Assembly: GCF_003049665.1 (NCBI RefSeq)
Contig: NZ_PYWM01000004.1
Location: forward strand, 124,001-188,000
Reading direction: 5' to 3'
Origin: Lysinibacillus mangiferihumi
Lineage (GTDB): Bacteria > Bacillota > Bacilli > Bacillales_A > Planococcaceae
DNA length: 64,000 nucleotides
Shown: positions 9,364 through 46,895 of the stretch, in pieces
How positions within the stretch are numbered: the first letter of the stretch is position 1
Layout of the letters: each line of letters begins with the position of its first letter
The notes under the pieces: model-generated
The model's database searches: none
What the model saw: the letters and a program-made list of their open reading frames with translations, nothing else
Told to the model about the DNA's origin: nothing
Made by a program: the position numbers and the translations under genes

Positions 9364-10092
9364 TTATATGTACCAACCACCATTTAATCGAATTATTTGT
9401 CCTGTCACATAATTTGCTTTTCCTGACAGATAAAAACGAACCATTTCAGCTACATCTGTTGTATGACCGACTGAACCTAATGGAATATCTTCTAAAATGT
9501 ATTGCAGTTCTTCATTACTTAAATGATTATTCATTGAAGTATTGATAAAGCCTGGGGCAATTGCATTAACACGAATACCAGATAATGCAGCCTCTTTGGC
9601 ATAGGACTTCACAAAAGCATGCTGCGCGCCTTTCACCGTTGCATAAAGTGCTTCTCCAGCAGATCCTGCCTCGCCCCAAATAGAACCGATAAAAAGCACA
9701 TAACTGACATCATGAGTACGTAGTTTTGAAGATAATAAAGCAGTTAATTGCATCGGGTTTTGCACATGAACACGCCATAATGCATCCATTTCCTCCGCTG
9801 TTGTATCCTCCAACAAGGCATAATGTGCTTGCCCATTCGCAAAGACAATTGCTTGGACACTAAATATTTGTGAAGCCAATTTTTGCGCTGCATGTATATT
9901 TGTAAAATCTCCTTGTACAAGCATAAATTCCTGCGCTGGAAAATCGCCTGTGAGCGTATCACATAAATCTTGAGCCATTTGCTTGTTATGAGCATAATGC
10001 ACATAGAGAGACCAGCCGTCTTGTGCCAAACTTCGACAAATAGCACGACCGATCTCACCCGATGCACCTAATATTAGGGCAAAGTTTTTCAT
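9364..10092 (-). CDS. ymfI: SDR-family EF-P 5-aminopentanone reductase (YmfI)
   Basis: A 242-residue short-chain dehydrogenase/reductase with the N-terminal NAD(P)-binding motif GASGEIG (residues 9-15), the NAG-like segment ANGQAH and the catalytic Y-x-x-x-K in YATVK. In B. subtilis YmfI reduces the 5-aminopentanone adduct on translation factor EF-P to 5-aminopentanol, a modification tied to polyproline translation and swarming. It resembles FabG, but synteny with ymfH and ymfJ supports YmfI. The ATG shares one base with the ymfH stop codon (TAATG), indicating translational coupling. Confidence 0.9.
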   Translation of the reverse strand: MKNFALILGASGEIGRAICRSLAQDGWSLYVHYAHNKQMAQDLCDTLTGDFPAQEFMLVQGDFTNIHAAQKLASQIFSVQAIVFANGQAHYALLEDTTAEEMDALWRVHVQNPMQLTALLSSKLRTHDVSYVLFIGSIWGEAGSAGEALYATVKGAQHAFVKSYAKEAALSGIRVNAIAPGFINTSMNNHLSNEELQYILEDIPLGSVGHTTDVAEMVRFYLSGKANYVTGQIIRLNGGWYI

Positions 10093-11390
10093 TATGCACC
10101 CTTCTCTGTTGGTAAAACTTTGAATACAGTTTGTTGCGATTCACCTTGGATAGAAGCAAACGCTTTAGTTAAATCTTCAATTGTTAATTCTTCTAAGACA
10201 GGGACAACATCGAATAAATTCATATCATTAAAAGAATAACGTGTAAATTGATTCGCGATAAATTCGATTGAATTTAATGCACGTAAGAAAAAGCCAATTT
10301 TTTTACGCTTGATGCGTTCTAAATCTGCACTGGCAAATTGCGCACCTTTTTCGTATTTTTCTAATTCAGCTTTAATCGCTTTTGCTAATGCATCAGGTTC
10401 TGTAGAATCAGAGCCAATCAATGCAAAGCCAAAACCTTTTTCTAACGTAAAGTCAAACGCATAGGATTCATCAATCAAGCCTTCATCATAAACGCGTTCA
10501 TAAAAGCTTGAAGTTCGCCCAAAAATAAGCTCTAATGCAATTTGTACGGATAGCTCATGTTGTAACATTTCACGGCCAGACAAATTCGTGTCTTTCGCTT
10601 TTAAGCCCATGTAGACCTTTGGTTTTTGCACATCCATATGCAATGTGCGTTCTTTTACAGCAACATCTGTTGGCTCTTCCTCAAAGAAACGCTGAATTGG
10701 TGTAGGCTCTGGGAACTCTTTTTTGCCTTGATTTTCACGTATAAATGCCATCATTTCTTCAGGCTCCACGGCACCAATAGCAAATAATAGCATATTAGAT
10801 GGATGATAAAACGTATTGTAACATGTATATAGATGGTCAGCTGTAATGCCGTCAATTGATTCAATTGTCCCCGCAATATCAATTTTCACTGGGTGAGTAT
10901 GATACATATTTTCAATTGTGCCAAAGTATAGGCGCCAATCCGGTTGGTCATCATACATTGTAATTTCCTGACCAATGATCCCTTTTTCTTTATTAACCGT
11001 AGCCTCTGTAAAGTATGGCTCTTGAACAAAATTCAATAAAGTTTCAGTGCTTTTATAAATATTATCTGTTGATGAAAATAAATACGCAGTCCGTGTGAAA
11101 GAAGTAAAAGCATTGGCTGAAGCACCATATTCGCTAAATTTTTGGAACACATCGCCATCTTCTTTTTCAAACATCTTATGCTCTAAAAAGTGCGCAATGC
11201 CATCCGGTACTGTAATGCTTTGCGATTCTCCAAGCGGTACAAATGTGCGGTCAACAGAACCGTACTTCGTTGTGAACGTTACAAATGTTTTTGAGAAGCC
11301 TTTTTTCGGTAAAATATAGACATCTAAACCATTTTCTAGTTTTTCATAGTAAAGTGTTTCATCTAATTGTTTGAATTCAATTGTTTTCAT
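10092..11390 (-). CDS. ymfH: M16 family zinc metallopeptidase (YmfH), catalytic partner
   Basis: A 432-residue pitrilysin-family (M16) protease. The inverted zinc motif HFLEH (about residues 67-71) is intact, with downstream acidic residues in TVNKEKGIIGQEITMYDDQP as the likely third ligand. Homologous pairs elsewhere act as a two-subunit peptidase. ATG 11390 overlaps the ymfF stop as ATGA; the longer frame upstream lies inside ymfF and was rejected. Gene order ymfF-ymfH-ymfI matches B. subtilis. Natural substrates are unknown. Confidence 0.93.
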   Translation of the reverse strand: MKTIEFKQLDETLYYEKLENGLDVYILPKKGFSKTFVTFTTKYGSVDRTFVPLGESQSITVPDGIAHFLEHKMFEKEDGDVFQKFSEYGASANAFTSFTRTAYLFSSTDNIYKSTETLLNFVQEPYFTEATVNKEKGIIGQEITMYDDQPDWRLYFGTIENMYHTHPVKIDIAGTIESIDGITADHLYTCYNTFYHPSNMLLFAIGAVEPEEMMAFIRENQGKKEFPEPTPIQRFFEEEPTDVAVKERTLHMDVQKPKVYMGLKAKDTNLSGREMLQHELSVQIALELIFGRTSSFYERVYDEGLIDESYAFDFTLEKGFGFALIGSDSTEPDALAKAIKAELEKYEKGAQFASADLERIKRKKIGFFLRALNSIEFIANQFTRYSFNDMNLFDVVPVLEELTIEDLTKAFASIQGESQQTVFKVLPTEKGA

Positions 11391-41796: not shown

Positions 41797-43202
41797 TTAG
41801 AAGAGTGATAACTGATTCGCATCAGGCATACCTTCTAAACAACCTAATTGATCCATATACTCAATTAATGTTTTCGATACACGTCCACGTTGCTGTAAAT
41901 CTTCTTTCGATAAGAACTCGCCATTTTCACGTGCCGCTACAATGGTTTTGGCAACGTTCGTACCAAGTCCAGGAATCGCATCGAATGGCGGTATTAAAGA
42001 ATTGCCATCAATAATAAACTCACTAGCCTGTGAACGATATAAGTCCACCTTTTGGAAGCTCATGCCACGCTCGCACATCTCCAGTGCAAGTTCCATTACT
42101 GTCAGTAAGTTTTTCTCTTTCGTCGAAGCATCTAAGCCCTTCATATTAATTTCATCGATCCTTGCACGAATCATTTGGGAACCTTGCGTCATCGCGATTA
42201 AATCAAAATCATCTGCCCTTACGGTAAAGTAGGCAGCATAATACAAGATTGGGAAATGCACTTTAAACCAAGCAATACGTACTGCCATTAAAACGTAGGC
42301 AGCGGCATGGGCTTTAGGGAACATATATTTAATCTTTTTACATGATTCGATATACCAAGCAGGTACCTTATTTGCTAACATCTCTGCTTCAAATTCCTCT
42401 GATAAGCCCTTCCCTTTACGCACAGACTCCATAATTTTGAAGGCTAAAGATGGTTCAAGCCCTTGGTAGATTAAATACACCATAATGTCATCACGACAGC
42501 CGATTACTTCTTTTAACACACATGTACCATTTTGTATCAGCTCCTGTGCATTACCAAGCCAGACGTCTGTTCCGTGCGATAGACCAGAAATTTGCACCAG
42601 CTCCGAAAAGGTAGATGGTTTCGTATCTTCTAGCATTTGGCGAACAAATCGTGTACCAAATTCCGGAATCCCTAGTGTTCCTGTCTTACACCCAATTTGC
42701 TTTTCTGTCACACCTAGCGATTCAGGTGAACTAAAAATTTTCATAACAACCGGATCATCGGTCGGAATTGTTTTCGGATCAATGCCAGATAAATCTTGTA
42801 ACATACGAATAACAGTCGGATCATCGTGTCCAAGAATATCGAGTTTTAAAATATTGTCATGAATGGAGTGGAAATCAAAGTGTGTTGTTCGCCACTCCGA
42901 ATCTTGTGCATCCGCTGGGAACTGCACTGGTGAGAAATCATAAATATCCATATAATCTGGTACAACGATAATCCCACCTGGATGTTGACCTGTTGTTCGT
43001 TTTACACCTGTACAACCCTGTACTAAACGGTCTACTTCAGCACCTCGGAAATGAAGGTTATTGTCGCTCGCATAGCCTTTAACGTAACCATATGCTGTTT
43101 TCTCTGCAACAGTACCGATTGTTCCAGCACGGAACACATAATCTTCACCAAACAGTACTTTTGTATAGTTGTGGGCTTGCGGTTGGTATTCACCTGAGAA
43201 AT
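41797..43202 (-). CDS. polC: DNA polymerase III PolC-type, 3' exon (C-terminal third)
   Basis: Codes for the last 468 residues of PolC counting the Asn codon shared across the junction (A at 43970 plus AT at 43202-43201). It begins [15 protein letters not shown] and carries the rest of the palm with the third catalytic Asp region ([12 protein letters not shown]), the fingers ([12 protein letters not shown]) and the C-terminal OB/tau-binding end NQLSLF. An open frame continues upstream into intron domain VI to an ATG at 43230, but those ten residues do not belong to PolC. Joined to the 5' exon the protein is 1443 residues, near the 1437 of B. subtilis. Confidence 0.93.
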
Positions 43203-43969
43203 ATGACGATAGGTAAGCATTTGAAGTCATCGCTAGCTTTTCCCCCGTCCCACACCGTGCATGAGGCTTTCACACTCACACGGCGTTCCATCGTTAATAT
43301 TGTTGAAAGTTAGAGGCAACTAACATTAACGACTTGTGCCCTTCCCTCTGAAATGTTTTGTCCTCCGACTTATTGGATATTCAGTCATCTATGGCATTTC
43401 TTCACTGGTACTACGGCACTACTGCCACTCCTTTTAAGTAAGTTATAGCTAATAGCCTTTCCTTACACCGTCGTCAGCGGAATGCAACTTCCTCTTACGT
43501 TAGGAGCTTCACACGTTCCACTATTTCTATCTGTACATCTTTCCTTAGGTTCCCCCCTAAATTCCGCTAGGCCAGCATGTGCCTATAACACAAGATGGAT
43601 TTTCATAACCAAACGCTTACTCATCCACACCTAGAAGTCCTATTTGGACCCCGCAGCATTTCTACTACGTGACATTCACGAAAAGTCAGTCGAGGGTTCG
43701 TCCCAGTCATTCTACTGATTCTAACCATAGAAAGTTTATAGACGCCAGACCTATCATTCACAAGATTGCTCTCTTTCCACAGCCGTACTGTTTGGGTGAA
43801 CTTCAGCCTACTTTAACGAGCTTCATACAAGTTTCAATTTTGCAGTTATCCACTTGCATGTCGTAGCTTCAGCGAGTATGTTTCAGGGCGTTACTCCGTC
43901 ATTCCATACTTTGAAATAGTAGTTCTACCAAATTGGTGGCTAATCTTTTCAATTAGCAACGTGTCGCAC
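43203..43969 (-). mobile_element. ORF-less group II intron interrupting polC
   Basis: A 767-nt element. The 5' end is GTGCGAC (consensus GUGYG) at 43969 and the 3' end AT (consensus AY) at 43204-43203. Domain V is a 33-nt hairpin at 43253-43285: CGCCGUG pairs with CACGGUG, UGAG with CUCA, with a GAAA-containing loop. Domain VI follows, with an A at 43210, eight nucleotides from the end, as likely branch point. Loops in domain I offer CCAAAU (43637-43649) as EBS1 candidate for IBS1 ATTTGA (5 of 6 pairs) and AUGUC (43671-43675) as EBS2 candidate for GATAT. Excision joins GATTTGA to ATTTCTC, giving D-L-N-F-S in frame. No reverse transcriptase/maturase is encoded, so splicing is autocatalytic or uses a maturase from elsewhere. 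Confidence 0.9.
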
Positions 43970-46895
43970 TCAAATCGATATCAGGTACTTTATCTCCTTT
44001 AAAACCAAGGAAAGTTTCGAATGGAATATCTTGTCCGTCTTTTTTATAAGGTGTACCACATTCCGTACAATCTTTGTTCGGTAGGTCATAGCCCGAGCTA
44101 ACAGAACCGTCATTGAAAAACTCGGAATGCTTACAATTTGGACAAATATAATGCGGTGGTAACGGGTTTACCTCCGTAATTTCCATAAAGGTTGCCACTA
44201 ATGAAGAACCAACGGAACCACGAGAACCTACTAAATAGCCATCCGCAAGTGACTTTTTCACAAGCTTTGCAGAAATTAAGTAAATCACACCAAATCCATG
44301 CCCTAAAATCGACTTTAGCTCTTTCTCGATACGAGCTTTAACAATTTCTGGTAATTCTTCGCCATAGATACGATGGGCCATCTCATACGTTAAATTTGTT
44401 ACTTCATCATCAGAACCTTCAATTTTAGGTGTATATAAATCATCCTTAATCGGCTTTACATCGTCAATCATAGCCGCAATTTTTTGCGTGTTTGTAACGA
44501 CGATTTCTTTTGCAAGATCAGGGCCTAAAAAATCAAACTCTTGCAACATCTCGTCCGTCGTTCGAAAATGAACCGCTGGCAGCTTGGATCTATTTAAAAT
44601 ATTGGCGCCACCTTGAGAACCAATCAGTATCTGTCTAAACATAGCATCGTTCGGATCCAGGTAATGAACATTTCCTGTAGCAACTACAGGCTTATCCATC
44701 TTCTTGCCAAGTTTCACAAGCTTGCGAATAATATCCTCAATGGTCCATTCATCGCGCACGACATTACGTTCAATTAACGGAGCATATACAGCCTTCGGTT
44801 GTACTTCAATATAATCGTAAAACCTTGCGATTTGTTCTGCTTCCTCAGGTGATTTATTCATCATCGTCTCAAACAATTCACCATTACTACAGCCGGAACC
44901 AACTAACAGTCCTTGTCGATATTGTTCCAACGTCGCACGTGTTACACGAGGGACACGATAGAAAGTTTTTGTATGCGAATGAGACACAAGTTTAAATAGA
45001 TTTTTTAAACCGTCATTATTGACTGCTAAAATCGTACAATGCATCGGACGCGCTTTTTTATAGGCATCACCGCCGCCAATATGCTTATTGAAATCATCGT
45101 GATATTTAATGCCGAGTTCATCCGCTTCTTTTAACAGATGCAATAATAAATAACCTGTTGCTTCCGTATCATAAATGGCGCGGTGATGTTGCGTTAATTC
45201 AATGCCGAATTTTTTACATAATGTATTTAAGCGATGATTTTTCATCGTAGGATGGAGCAAACGAGCAAGTTCTAAAGTATCAATTACTGGGTGAATCGTA
45301 TCTTCCAGACCGTATTTTTTATAACCAGTATAGAGGAAGCCCATATCAAAAGAGGCATTGTGTGCCACTACGATTGCGTCTTCTATAAAGGCATGGAACT
45401 CATGAATCACTTGCTCCACTTCTGGCGCATTGCGAACCATCTCATCTGTGATGCCGGTCAGTTCGATTGTTGTTGCAGACAATGCATGATGTGGATTTGC
45501 AAAACTTTCGTATTTGTCAATCACATGTCCGCCTTTAATTTTGACTGCTGCAAGCTCTATGATTGTATCGTAAGCAGTAGAAAGCCCTGTCGTTTCGACG
45601 TCAAACACCACATAGGTCGCATCGTCTAATGCACGATGCTCAGAAGCATACGCAATCGGTACACCGTCATCGACTAAATTAGCTTCTAAACCGTAAATCA
45701 CTTTAATGCCGTGTTTTTTGCCTGCTCCATAAGCTTCAGGGAAAGACTGCACGACCGCATGATCCGTTATCGCAATCGCTGGATGACCCCATTTCGCCGC
45801 TTGAGCCACTAACCTATCTACCGGTGTAACTGCATCCATTTGACTCATCGGTGTGTGCAAATGGAGCTCTACTCGTTTTTCACCTTCTGGCGCCTTGTCT
45901 TGTCGTGTTTCTTTTTTAATTTCATTAATATCATTTGCCATCACAATTAAATCACGAATAAAGGTATCGGTTTGAACCGAGCCACGTACTTTCACCCACA
46001 TACCCTTTTTCAAATGCTGCATCAATTCCGCATCATCGTTATCCCGTGAGAACATTTTTACAACAATTGAATCCGTATAGTCCGTAATTTTAATTTGTAG
46101 AAGTGAGCGTCCACTTTTTAATTCTTTAATTTCGGTATCGAAAACAAACCCTTCAATAATAACGCGACGTTCTTCTTCCACTATGCGCTTAATTTCCATA
46201 ATTTCATCGTCTTTAATTTGCATACCAAGCTGAAATGGACGATCACCGAGGGCCGCCAATGCTGGATTGTCCTTTTTGTCCTGCTCACGTTTTTGGAAGT
46301 CTTGCATTGCTTGTTGAGCCATCGCTGCTTCTTCTAAGCGTTTTTGCTCGATAAATGCTTCTTGGGCTTCACGCATTTCTTCTGTTTCCTCTTGCAGCAT
46401 AAAATCAAAGGCAATTTGCGGAAATCCAAATTGACTGTAGCTAAGAGCTAGCTTTTCCGCATATTTCGTTTTCAGCATCATCAGTTCCATTTCCTGCACG
46501 CAGGATAACGTAATTTTTTGCCCATTCCACATCGGTATTTGCGATACAAGGCAATTTTTTAAGGTTGGTGCCATATCGTCGATTTGCTCAACAATGGTTA
46601 ACCAATACGCTTGAATCAGCTCTTCCGTAACATTTTTTTCAACTGTTTCAAAAGTTGTTTCGATTTGGGCTATAGCAGCGAATTTTTCAGCTAGATGTGT
46701 ACGAAATAGTTGATATAAGGGAAATGGAAGTATGCCACGTAATTTAATATTAAAATGCCAGAGTCTATTTTTTTTATGCACAGTAAGACGGGCTAATTCG
46801 CCTTCTTCAAAAAAGGACATATAAACATCTTCTGTTAACTCTAGTTGTTGCAAGAGCATTTGAAATCTTTGTCTTGCTTCTTGTTGCTGTTCCAA
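43970..46895 (-). CDS. polC: DNA polymerase III PolC-type, 5' exon (N-terminal two thirds)
   Basis: The essential leading-strand replicase of low-GC Gram-positives. This exon codes for 975 residues plus one base: N-terminal and OB domains (to about 330), PHP domain with VELHLHTPMSQMDAV, the inserted 3'-5' proofreading exonuclease (VVFDVETTGLS, about 425-590), the rest of PHP/palm with the zinc finger CPNC...CTEC, and the first two catalytic aspartates in VPDIDL (D972, D974). The start is TTG 46895 behind AGTAGGTG. Unspliced RNA would be read four or five codons into the intron to a TAA at 43953, giving an inactive polymerase. It follows proS, as in B. subtilis. Confidence 0.95.

Follow-up and report, generated by a model that had tools for sequence, protein, structure and literature searches.

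The window, a stretch of 64,000 nucleotides from the 5.31-Mb draft genome of Lysinibacillus mangiferihumi (G000, 138 contigs; window at G000:C87:124001-188000), carries on its minus strand a run of housekeeping genes encoding, in this order, an M50 peptidase, a class II tRNA synthetase with an editing domain, PolC, a short ORF taken from its position to be rimP, NusA and IF-2. The polC gene is divided into two exons by a group II intron (Table 1), the sense strand of which starts GTGCGACACG and ends with CGTCAT. Its termini, GTGCGAC and AT, lie exactly at the exon junction, as the preliminary description had it, and agree with 5′ GUGYG / 3′ AY. Rfam models match at gathering level at both ends, confirming to the nucleotide the intron that had been placed at 43203-43969: RF02004 matches 43927-43735 (E 8e-33), a match that alone does not decide the subclass (IIB, for example), and RF00029 matches 43288-43203 (48.9 bits) and terminates at the intron 3′ end.

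When the exons are joined without the intron, they form a single PolC frame of 1443 amino acids that reads VPDIDLNFSGEYQP across the junction, a product of the length predicted beforehand, and the two halves abut in NCBIfam NF001688 (PolC-type DNA polymerase III), aligning with profile positions 3-976 and 978-1444 of 1445. The exons have no other defect. The cut falls one codon past two of the three aspartates, as was originally noted, in agreement with a position after the Leu of PDID-L-N; the aspartates of the PDID motif are assumed here to be the catalytic ones of PolC. An unspliced message would reach a stop after five intron-coded residues and yield a 980-aa fragment. The longest open stretch on the sense strand within the intron is 63 codons, and it encodes no RT or maturase. 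A search of the L. mangiferihumi genome with the 3′ half of PolC found no second polC, the sole other match being 41 residues of a 1032-codon frame. Two of the three findings that the preliminary description had named as counting against its reading, a lack of covariance-model matches and a second intact polC, were thus looked for and did not turn up.

Table 1. Features of the split polC gene in the window and of the other introns of its clan in the L. mangiferihumi genome
Feature	Position	Strand	Remarks
Group II intron without maturase gene, 767 nt	43969 (5′) to 43203 (3′)	−	Rfam and frame restoration
polC 5′ exon (PHP, exonuclease, palm start; open to ...VPDIDL + A)	43970..46895	−	
polC 3′ exon (remaining palm, fingers, HhH)	41797..43202	−	
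Domain I region, RF02004 (group-II-D1D4-5)	43735..43927	−	148 bits
IBS1, final six bases of 5′ exon	43970..43975	−	
EBS1 loop	43608..43613	−	5/6 pairs with IBS1, three of them G-U; one U-U mismatch
Domain IV, bare hairpin, read by eye from the sequence	43292..43331	−	IEP gene sits here in relatives
Domain V (RF00029)	43252..43288	−	
Domain VI stem	43205..43249	−	
Predicted branch-point A, bulged, 8 nt from 3′ end	43210	−	
recJ intron with IEP	G000:C54 (L026:4088-6858)		
addA intron, 1071 nt, no IEP	G000:C22 (L027:4458-5528)		
pcrA motif VI intron with IEP	G000:C62 (L344), 3′ end 4705	−	

The minimum free energy (MFE) fold of the last 86 nucleotides consists of domain V and domain VI with the A at position -8 bulged (z -2.7; 2 of 200 shuffles as low), and this A is invariant in all 24 aligned 3′ ends, so that both the domain V hairpin and the domain VI A eight nucleotides from the end, which had been recognised by eye, hold up. 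In 24 introns of the clan, 23 of them distinct, 99.8% of 581 cells of the domain V-VI structure are paired. Both partners of a pair have changed in 70 instances, against 20.1 for shuffled and no more than 8 for slid controls, and several domain V pairs are altered on both sides simultaneously in some copies, whereas further pair types (22 versus 21.3) are not above shuffles. Covariation in domains V-VI is strong.

A homologous intron occupies the identical polC codon in 24 verified species, comprising 21 of 261 family genomes plus Priestia abyssalis, Domibacillus antri and Bacillus marasmi. A pattern spanning exon and intron matched in 22 of the family genomes, 21 of them in polC, with no PolC found upstream of the match in the other (G191), and the reversed control pattern gave 0 matches. 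The carriers of the family span eight genera, including Caryophanon, Kurthia, Metalysinibacillus and Metasolibacillus. A scan of 84,980 species (one genome each) produced 69 matches, of which 14 have PolC upstream and one more is that of Kurthia huakuii (G052), cut by the end of the locus; no PolC was found within up to 300 upstream bases (about 100 in a few) of the remaining 54. Because the patterns demand exact ends, 24 species is a lower bound. Within the genus, the intron is present in seven of 32 genomes; the uninterrupted polC motif was read directly in 24 of the remaining 25, and the last of these (G016) has an open frame of 1480 codons. The flanks of the L. mangiferihumi intron are 96-100% identical, up to the junction, to the intron-less sister genomes G027 and G029. 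All 24 introns at the site bring an in-frame stop five residues into the intron, and the PolC exons of the carriers are under strong purifying selection (L. mangiferihumi and Lysinibacillus macroides, G012: 96% identity in amino acids, 56% at codon position 3).

In one carrier (G021), the 3′ exon of polC (L020, G021:C1 about 1369100) is frameshifted around residues 1039-1051, which may reflect a sequencing error, and a second PolC-like match in that genome (L249) is 37% identical and lies within a 1362-codon frame. The polC gene of another carrier (G017) is bracketed by two Bacillaceae-1 RNAs (RF01690; L023:2434-2500 and 10067-10133).

The copies at the polC site differ in the state of the RT-HNH frame, which is open with 607-608 codons in 10 of 22 complete introns (G017, G051, G052, G053, G065, G159, G217, G234, G237 and B. 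marasmi) and broken or deleted in 12. The open frames encode IEPs under purifying selection (G051-G053: 92% identity in amino acids, 70% at third codon positions), and the product of the one open copy that was scanned with Pfam and NCBIfam (G017) matches RVT_1, HNH and the group II maturase family. The frame is interrupted by one stop in G031 and by a frameshift in G021; ten introns with deletions span 767-1674 nt (767 in G000 and G067, 785 in G163, 793 in G153, 847 in G042, 909 in G040, 921 in G012, 1265 in G024, 1327 in G062 and 1674 in G001). In the seven shortest, neither the deletion ends nor the leftovers are alike: domain IV retains C-terminal IEP codons in G012, the 5′ part in G042 and only a hairpin in G000. 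The tree of 24 introns, two of which are cut, rejects a grouping of all deleted copies in one clade (p 3e-75), and its starred branches require at least five switches between the deleted and the full-length state. The IEP gene has been lost repeatedly among the introns at the polC site. The deleted IEP region of two of them (G001, L025; G024, L022) is partly filled by repeats, with open frames containing KAKRQ/ESKAAATN-like repeats.

When 21 introns are compared between genera, the ribozyme parts are more alike than the PolC exons in every one of the 180 pairs (83-96% versus 68-78%; the far more divergent G217 was left out of this matrix), and the 14 closest introns are 90-96% identical between genera, against 70-78% for their exons. 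The greater similarity of the introns is not by itself proof of transfer, the ribozyme core being constrained, and third codon positions are therefore a better gauge. The introns of Kurthia gibsonii and K. huakuii are 99.6% identical over 2653 nt, with IEP third positions 99.7% identical and PolC (3′ exon) third positions 56%; the corresponding values for IEP and PolC are 73% versus 49% for G065-G159 and only 59% versus 55% for G017-G065. Intron clades that follow the host genus are rejected in all three cases (Lysinibacillus p 0.0013, Metasolibacillus 0.0007, Caryophanon 0.0006). The rejection of these clades, together with introns more alike than exons, indicates that the clan moves horizontally, and at the level of sequence comparison its spread between several genera is established. 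On the exon tree, into which only carriers were entered from outside the genus and from which G016 is absent, the distribution of the intron requires seven changes of state, at least five of them by starred branches. L. mangiferihumi shares a starred clade with G020, G026, G027 and G029, and with stricter filters no RF02004 match in any of these four is among the matches listed. The simplest reading is that its intron is a recent precise insertion without foreign flanking DNA, the alternative being loss in the relatives; the change count for this clade fits a gain in L. mangiferihumi and losses in its sisters alike.

If the intron were ancestral at the polC site and inherited vertically with many losses, rather than having homed there repeatedly, the roughly parallel divergence of intron (97-98%) and exon (92-94%) in the Lysinibacillus group G001, G017, G024 and G031 would be accounted for, and the change counts do not separate gain from loss; but the excess of intron over exon similarity between genera, the rejection of single-clade trees for Lysinibacillus, Metasolibacillus and Caryophanon, the 99.6% identity of the two Kurthia introns and the four sister genomes that, with the stricter filters, show no RF02004 among the matches listed make such a history improbable. 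It is far less probable still that PolC is made as two unspliced polypeptides, the 980-aa 5′ ORF and a 477-aa 3′ ORF beginning at ATG 43230 inside domain VI. That ATG and its open frame exist in L. mangiferihumi, and an in-frame ATG, GTG or TTG is found there in 13 of the 22 complete introns, but nine have none between the last stop and the 3′ exon, and the pairing of the ribozyme is conserved; a split of this kind would also, presumably, part the catalytic aspartates. The 3′ part in the carriers (490-492 open codons, in two frames in G021) was likewise rejected as an independent gene because nine of 22 have no start. That polC might be dead in L. mangiferihumi, with another polymerase replicating the chromosome, is scarcely conceivable: the reading frame is interrupted and Firmicutes also have DnaE, but polC is present in 32 of 32 genus genomes, occurs once in L. 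mangiferihumi, and has exons that are otherwise free of defects and under purifying selection. It is instead highly probable that the polC intron is excised as a ribozyme and that it derives by decay from a retroelement with an active-site codon of PolC as its homing site.

Excision of the polC intron may be helped by a maturase acting in trans, namely the IEP of the recJ intron, or may proceed with no such help, and the chances that the L. mangiferihumi intron relies on the former are evenly balanced. L. mangiferihumi has two related IEP genes, one in the recJ intron and one in the pcrA intron, and the former, with 634 codons counted from its first start codon, shares 43% identity with the IEP that the polC intron of G017 encodes. 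Bacterial ORF-less introns are rare and nearly always accompany related IEPs, with C.te.I1 as the sole exception, according to the sections consulted of one review (PMC4424553). However, Caryophanon tenue (G042) retains an ORF-less polC intron of 847 nt, and its draft genome (100% complete, about 40 contigs) contains no match to a group II maturase model or to RVT_1; its domain V matches, from 150 of 245 first-look candidates scored, are the one in polC and a weak one (33.5 bits, below the cut-off), both inside contigs. In L. macroides, polC and recJ each contain an ORF-less intron (921 and 801 nt, respectively), and there are three RT-like ORFs, two of which lie away from domain V matches; the one that adjoins a domain V match belongs to an intron of another type (RF02001 and RF01998, taken here to be IIC). 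An initial description of L. macroides as lacking any IEP was rejected on account of these three ORFs, and only the lack of a related IEP is retained. Also at odds with help in trans is domain IV of the L. mangiferihumi intron, the place where such maturases bind, which is pared to a 40-nt hairpin. Should a finished genome bear out the absence of a maturase, C. tenue would add another exception to the rule, and one in an essential gene. Contigs C57, C58, C76, C84 and C117 of L. mangiferihumi begin with equal-scoring domain V matches (positions 55-126), probably a multicopy intron collapsed in the draft, which calls for caution because the absence in C. tenue likewise rests on a draft.

The clan is found in other genes of DNA metabolism. 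Twenty-nine introns were picked for their similarity to the L. mangiferihumi polC intron, and 15 lie in recognisable genes: five in recJ (GDYDA/D, the slash marking the insertion), five in addA and two in pcrA (DEYQD/), two in radC (HNH/) and one in pcrA motif VI (L. mangiferihumi); at the other 14 junctions no long ORF was seen. A broader selection with RF02004 reached at least 90 of 261 genomes, and 64 loci were picked among the matches listed, of which 17 (three of them strong) were dropped for want of a strict GTGYGNC start. Of the 38 strong loci (at least 125 bits) that remained among the matches listed, 35 end in recJ (14), DEYQD helicases (11), radC (7), topB (2) and dnaE (1), and every one of these 35 motif-placed introns follows the first base of a codon; the remaining three lie in a hydrolase-like gene, a 38-codon ORF and a 27-codon ORF. 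Nine weaker loci (107-123 bits), also among the matches listed, include one in recJ, three in unnamed ORFs of 139-278 codons and five with none longer than 35 codons. NCBIfam identified recJ, addA, pcrA, radC, topB and dnaE among ten gene pieces and one piece only as a UvrD/RecB-like helicase. The sites are PolC PDIDL/N, RecJ GDYDA/D, AddA/PcrA DEYQD/, RadC HNH/, DnaE YQEQI/ and TopB DWLVGM/. Four DNA-metabolism genes are split in L. mangiferihumi itself (polC, recJ, addA and pcrA), and its best pcrA match is the split copy. Two other genomes, G031 (L342, C10) and G001 (L343, C1), have an addA gene with two introns (DEYQD/ and GDVKQSI/) at about 920-925 kb, the second with an RT match in both. 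In K. huakuii (G052; L304, C7:351911-352106), a copy with the addA/pcrA guide lies inside a hydrolase-like gene with a 5/6 guide match, an apparent off-target retrotransposition.

The guide that would direct these introns, EBS1, was taken as the six bases before the conserved TATGAAA (TTCGAAA in radC). It forms six of six pairs with IBS1 in addA, pcrA and radC, a mean of 5.17 in polC and a mean of 4.33 in recJ, the last from three of five rows after two without the anchor were dropped, and the correct assignment of guides to targets ranks first of 24 permutations. Among the 24 polC copies, pairing is 6/6 in five, 5/6 in 18 (L. mangiferihumi included) and 4/6 in one (P. abyssalis). A column scan without the anchor had given 0.79 for polC and 0.5 for recJ on account of alignment gaps, and anchoring on TATGAAA raised polC to 5.17 of 6; recJ pairing is imperfect even after anchoring, which weakens the claim of a guide. 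Of the candidate EBS1 and EBS2 loops proposed in the preliminary description, EBS1 stands, in the loop at 43608-43613. The pairing of EBS2 with IBS2 was dropped: a column scan found no site common to all targets, and the candidate loop varies among polC copies. The loop CCAAAT (within 43635-43660) was rejected as EBS1, since it varies among copies with the same IBS1.

The insertion sites have one codon phase in common, which places positions -2 and -5 of IBS1 at the third base of a codon. Base pairing there was examined in 85 intron rows, minus 19 without a readable EBS1, leaving out 'other' targets, skipping mismatched positions and keeping to positions where the exon base leaves the guide a choice. 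Among distinct guides, third codon positions have 17 wobble and 2 Watson-Crick pairs, versus 7 and 13 at other positions (p 0.0008), a pattern that was noticed post hoc in rows that share ancestry. With the DEYQD rows (addA, pcrA, other) merged by hand, the counts are 15/2 versus 7/11 (p 0.0045), and with one row for each of six targets, they are 7/0 versus 2/6 (p 0.007). The base at -2 in topB belongs to a Met codon, treated as non-degenerate, and there the guide uses a Watson-Crick pair. Two distinct guides have a Watson-Crick A at a third position (radC GATGGT and polC TTTGAT), and the recJ guide is often mismatched at a four-fold Ala position. Wobble in the guide has a parallel in homing endonucleases of the kind that tolerate synonymous change in their targets.

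In the proposed mechanism, the IEP-less intron would be transcribed inside the polC mRNA and fold as a ribozyme, which would carry out two transesterifications: the bulged A43210 would attack the 5′ splice site, and the exons would then be joined to encode intact PolC. EBS1 would pair with IBS1 across the Asp-Leu active-site codons. The intron would be a decayed homing retroelement, which in relatives would be inserted and copied by the RT-HNH protein encoded in domain IV. The intron presumably splices in vivo, and retrohoming is its presumed route of entry. As the preliminary description suggested, the rate of replication may be sensitive to the conditions of splicing. It is proposed that, because the target encodes a catalytic motif and can hardly change, the element keeps finding its sites, and that, because polC is essential, the host goes on splicing. 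There is about an even chance that the observations fit together as follows: among the codons of replication and repair genes, a lineage of introns has come to specialise in the most highly conserved, where, inserted after the first base of a codon, it has the third positions of IBS1 mostly facing G or U, so that the guide reads through synonymous variation; in essential genes it has repeatedly lost the maturase gene; and in C. tenue it may be spliced without any intron maturase in the cell. If this is true, it would be a bacterial parallel to the domestication behind organellar and perhaps spliceosomal introns.

Group II introns have been described in essential genes of bacteria, although such cases are rare. 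The preliminary description stated that bacterial introns normally avoid essential coding sequence, and reviews concur in the portions seen (PMC4424553, PMC3522654), but the clan of the polC intron is an exception; PMC8919778, in the portion seen, refers to Waldern et al. 2020 on the subject of introns in essential genes. No polC intron was found in the literature searched, and an earlier mention in Waldern et al. 2020 or in the group II intron database is possible. Four features go beyond the literature found: the recurrence of the intron at one polC site, its repeated shedding of the maturase gene within an essential gene, a host that may have no maturase, and the targeting of conserved codons. 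The prevailing view is that group II introns of bacteria stay out of housekeeping genes and need their maturase. In many species, however, polC, an essential gene of replication, contains one. The copies range from an open retroelement to a bare ribozyme, sister genomes that lack the intron are available for comparison, and the bacteria are culturable, so that the level of splicing required for an intron to be tolerated in an essential gene, the need for a maturase, and the loss of mobility and fixation can all be tested.

One of the closest known systems is the recA intron of Geobacillus kaustophilus (Chee and Takami 2005, as cited in the part seen of PMC3522654), likewise a group II intron that interrupts an essential gene of DNA metabolism in the Bacillales and is compatible with life; as far as that source goes, it is one case in another gene, whereas the polC site is occupied in 24 species, with movement between genera and decay to ORF-less forms. 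C.te.I1 of Clostridium tetani resembles what is apparently the situation in C. tenue, an ORF-less intron with no related IEP in the genome (PMC4424553 and PMC3919590, in the parts seen), but it lies in a surface-layer gene with alternative splicing, whereas the polC introns interrupt an essential gene of replication. L. mangiferihumi differs from the host of C.te.I1 in having two related IEPs in its genome. Inteins and homing-endonuclease introns in catalytic motifs also occupy invariant codons of replication genes. Unlike them, the polC intron is a retroelement ribozyme that would read its target by the pairing of an RNA guide. Group II introns of phages, to judge from the part seen of PMC12350094, share with the polC clan their placement in conserved coding sequence and the occurrence of ORF-less beside IEP-bearing copies, but they lie in phage genes, and a match to the L. 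mangiferihumi polC intron occurs in five of 50,697 phage records, confined to the last 13% of the intron. The ORF-less introns of plant organelles are, like the polC introns, confined to splicing in essential genes after loss of the IEP and of mobility (PMC4424553, in the sections consulted); they are vertically stable and depend on host factors, whereas the polC introns are bacterial, with mobile and decayed copies side by side at one site.
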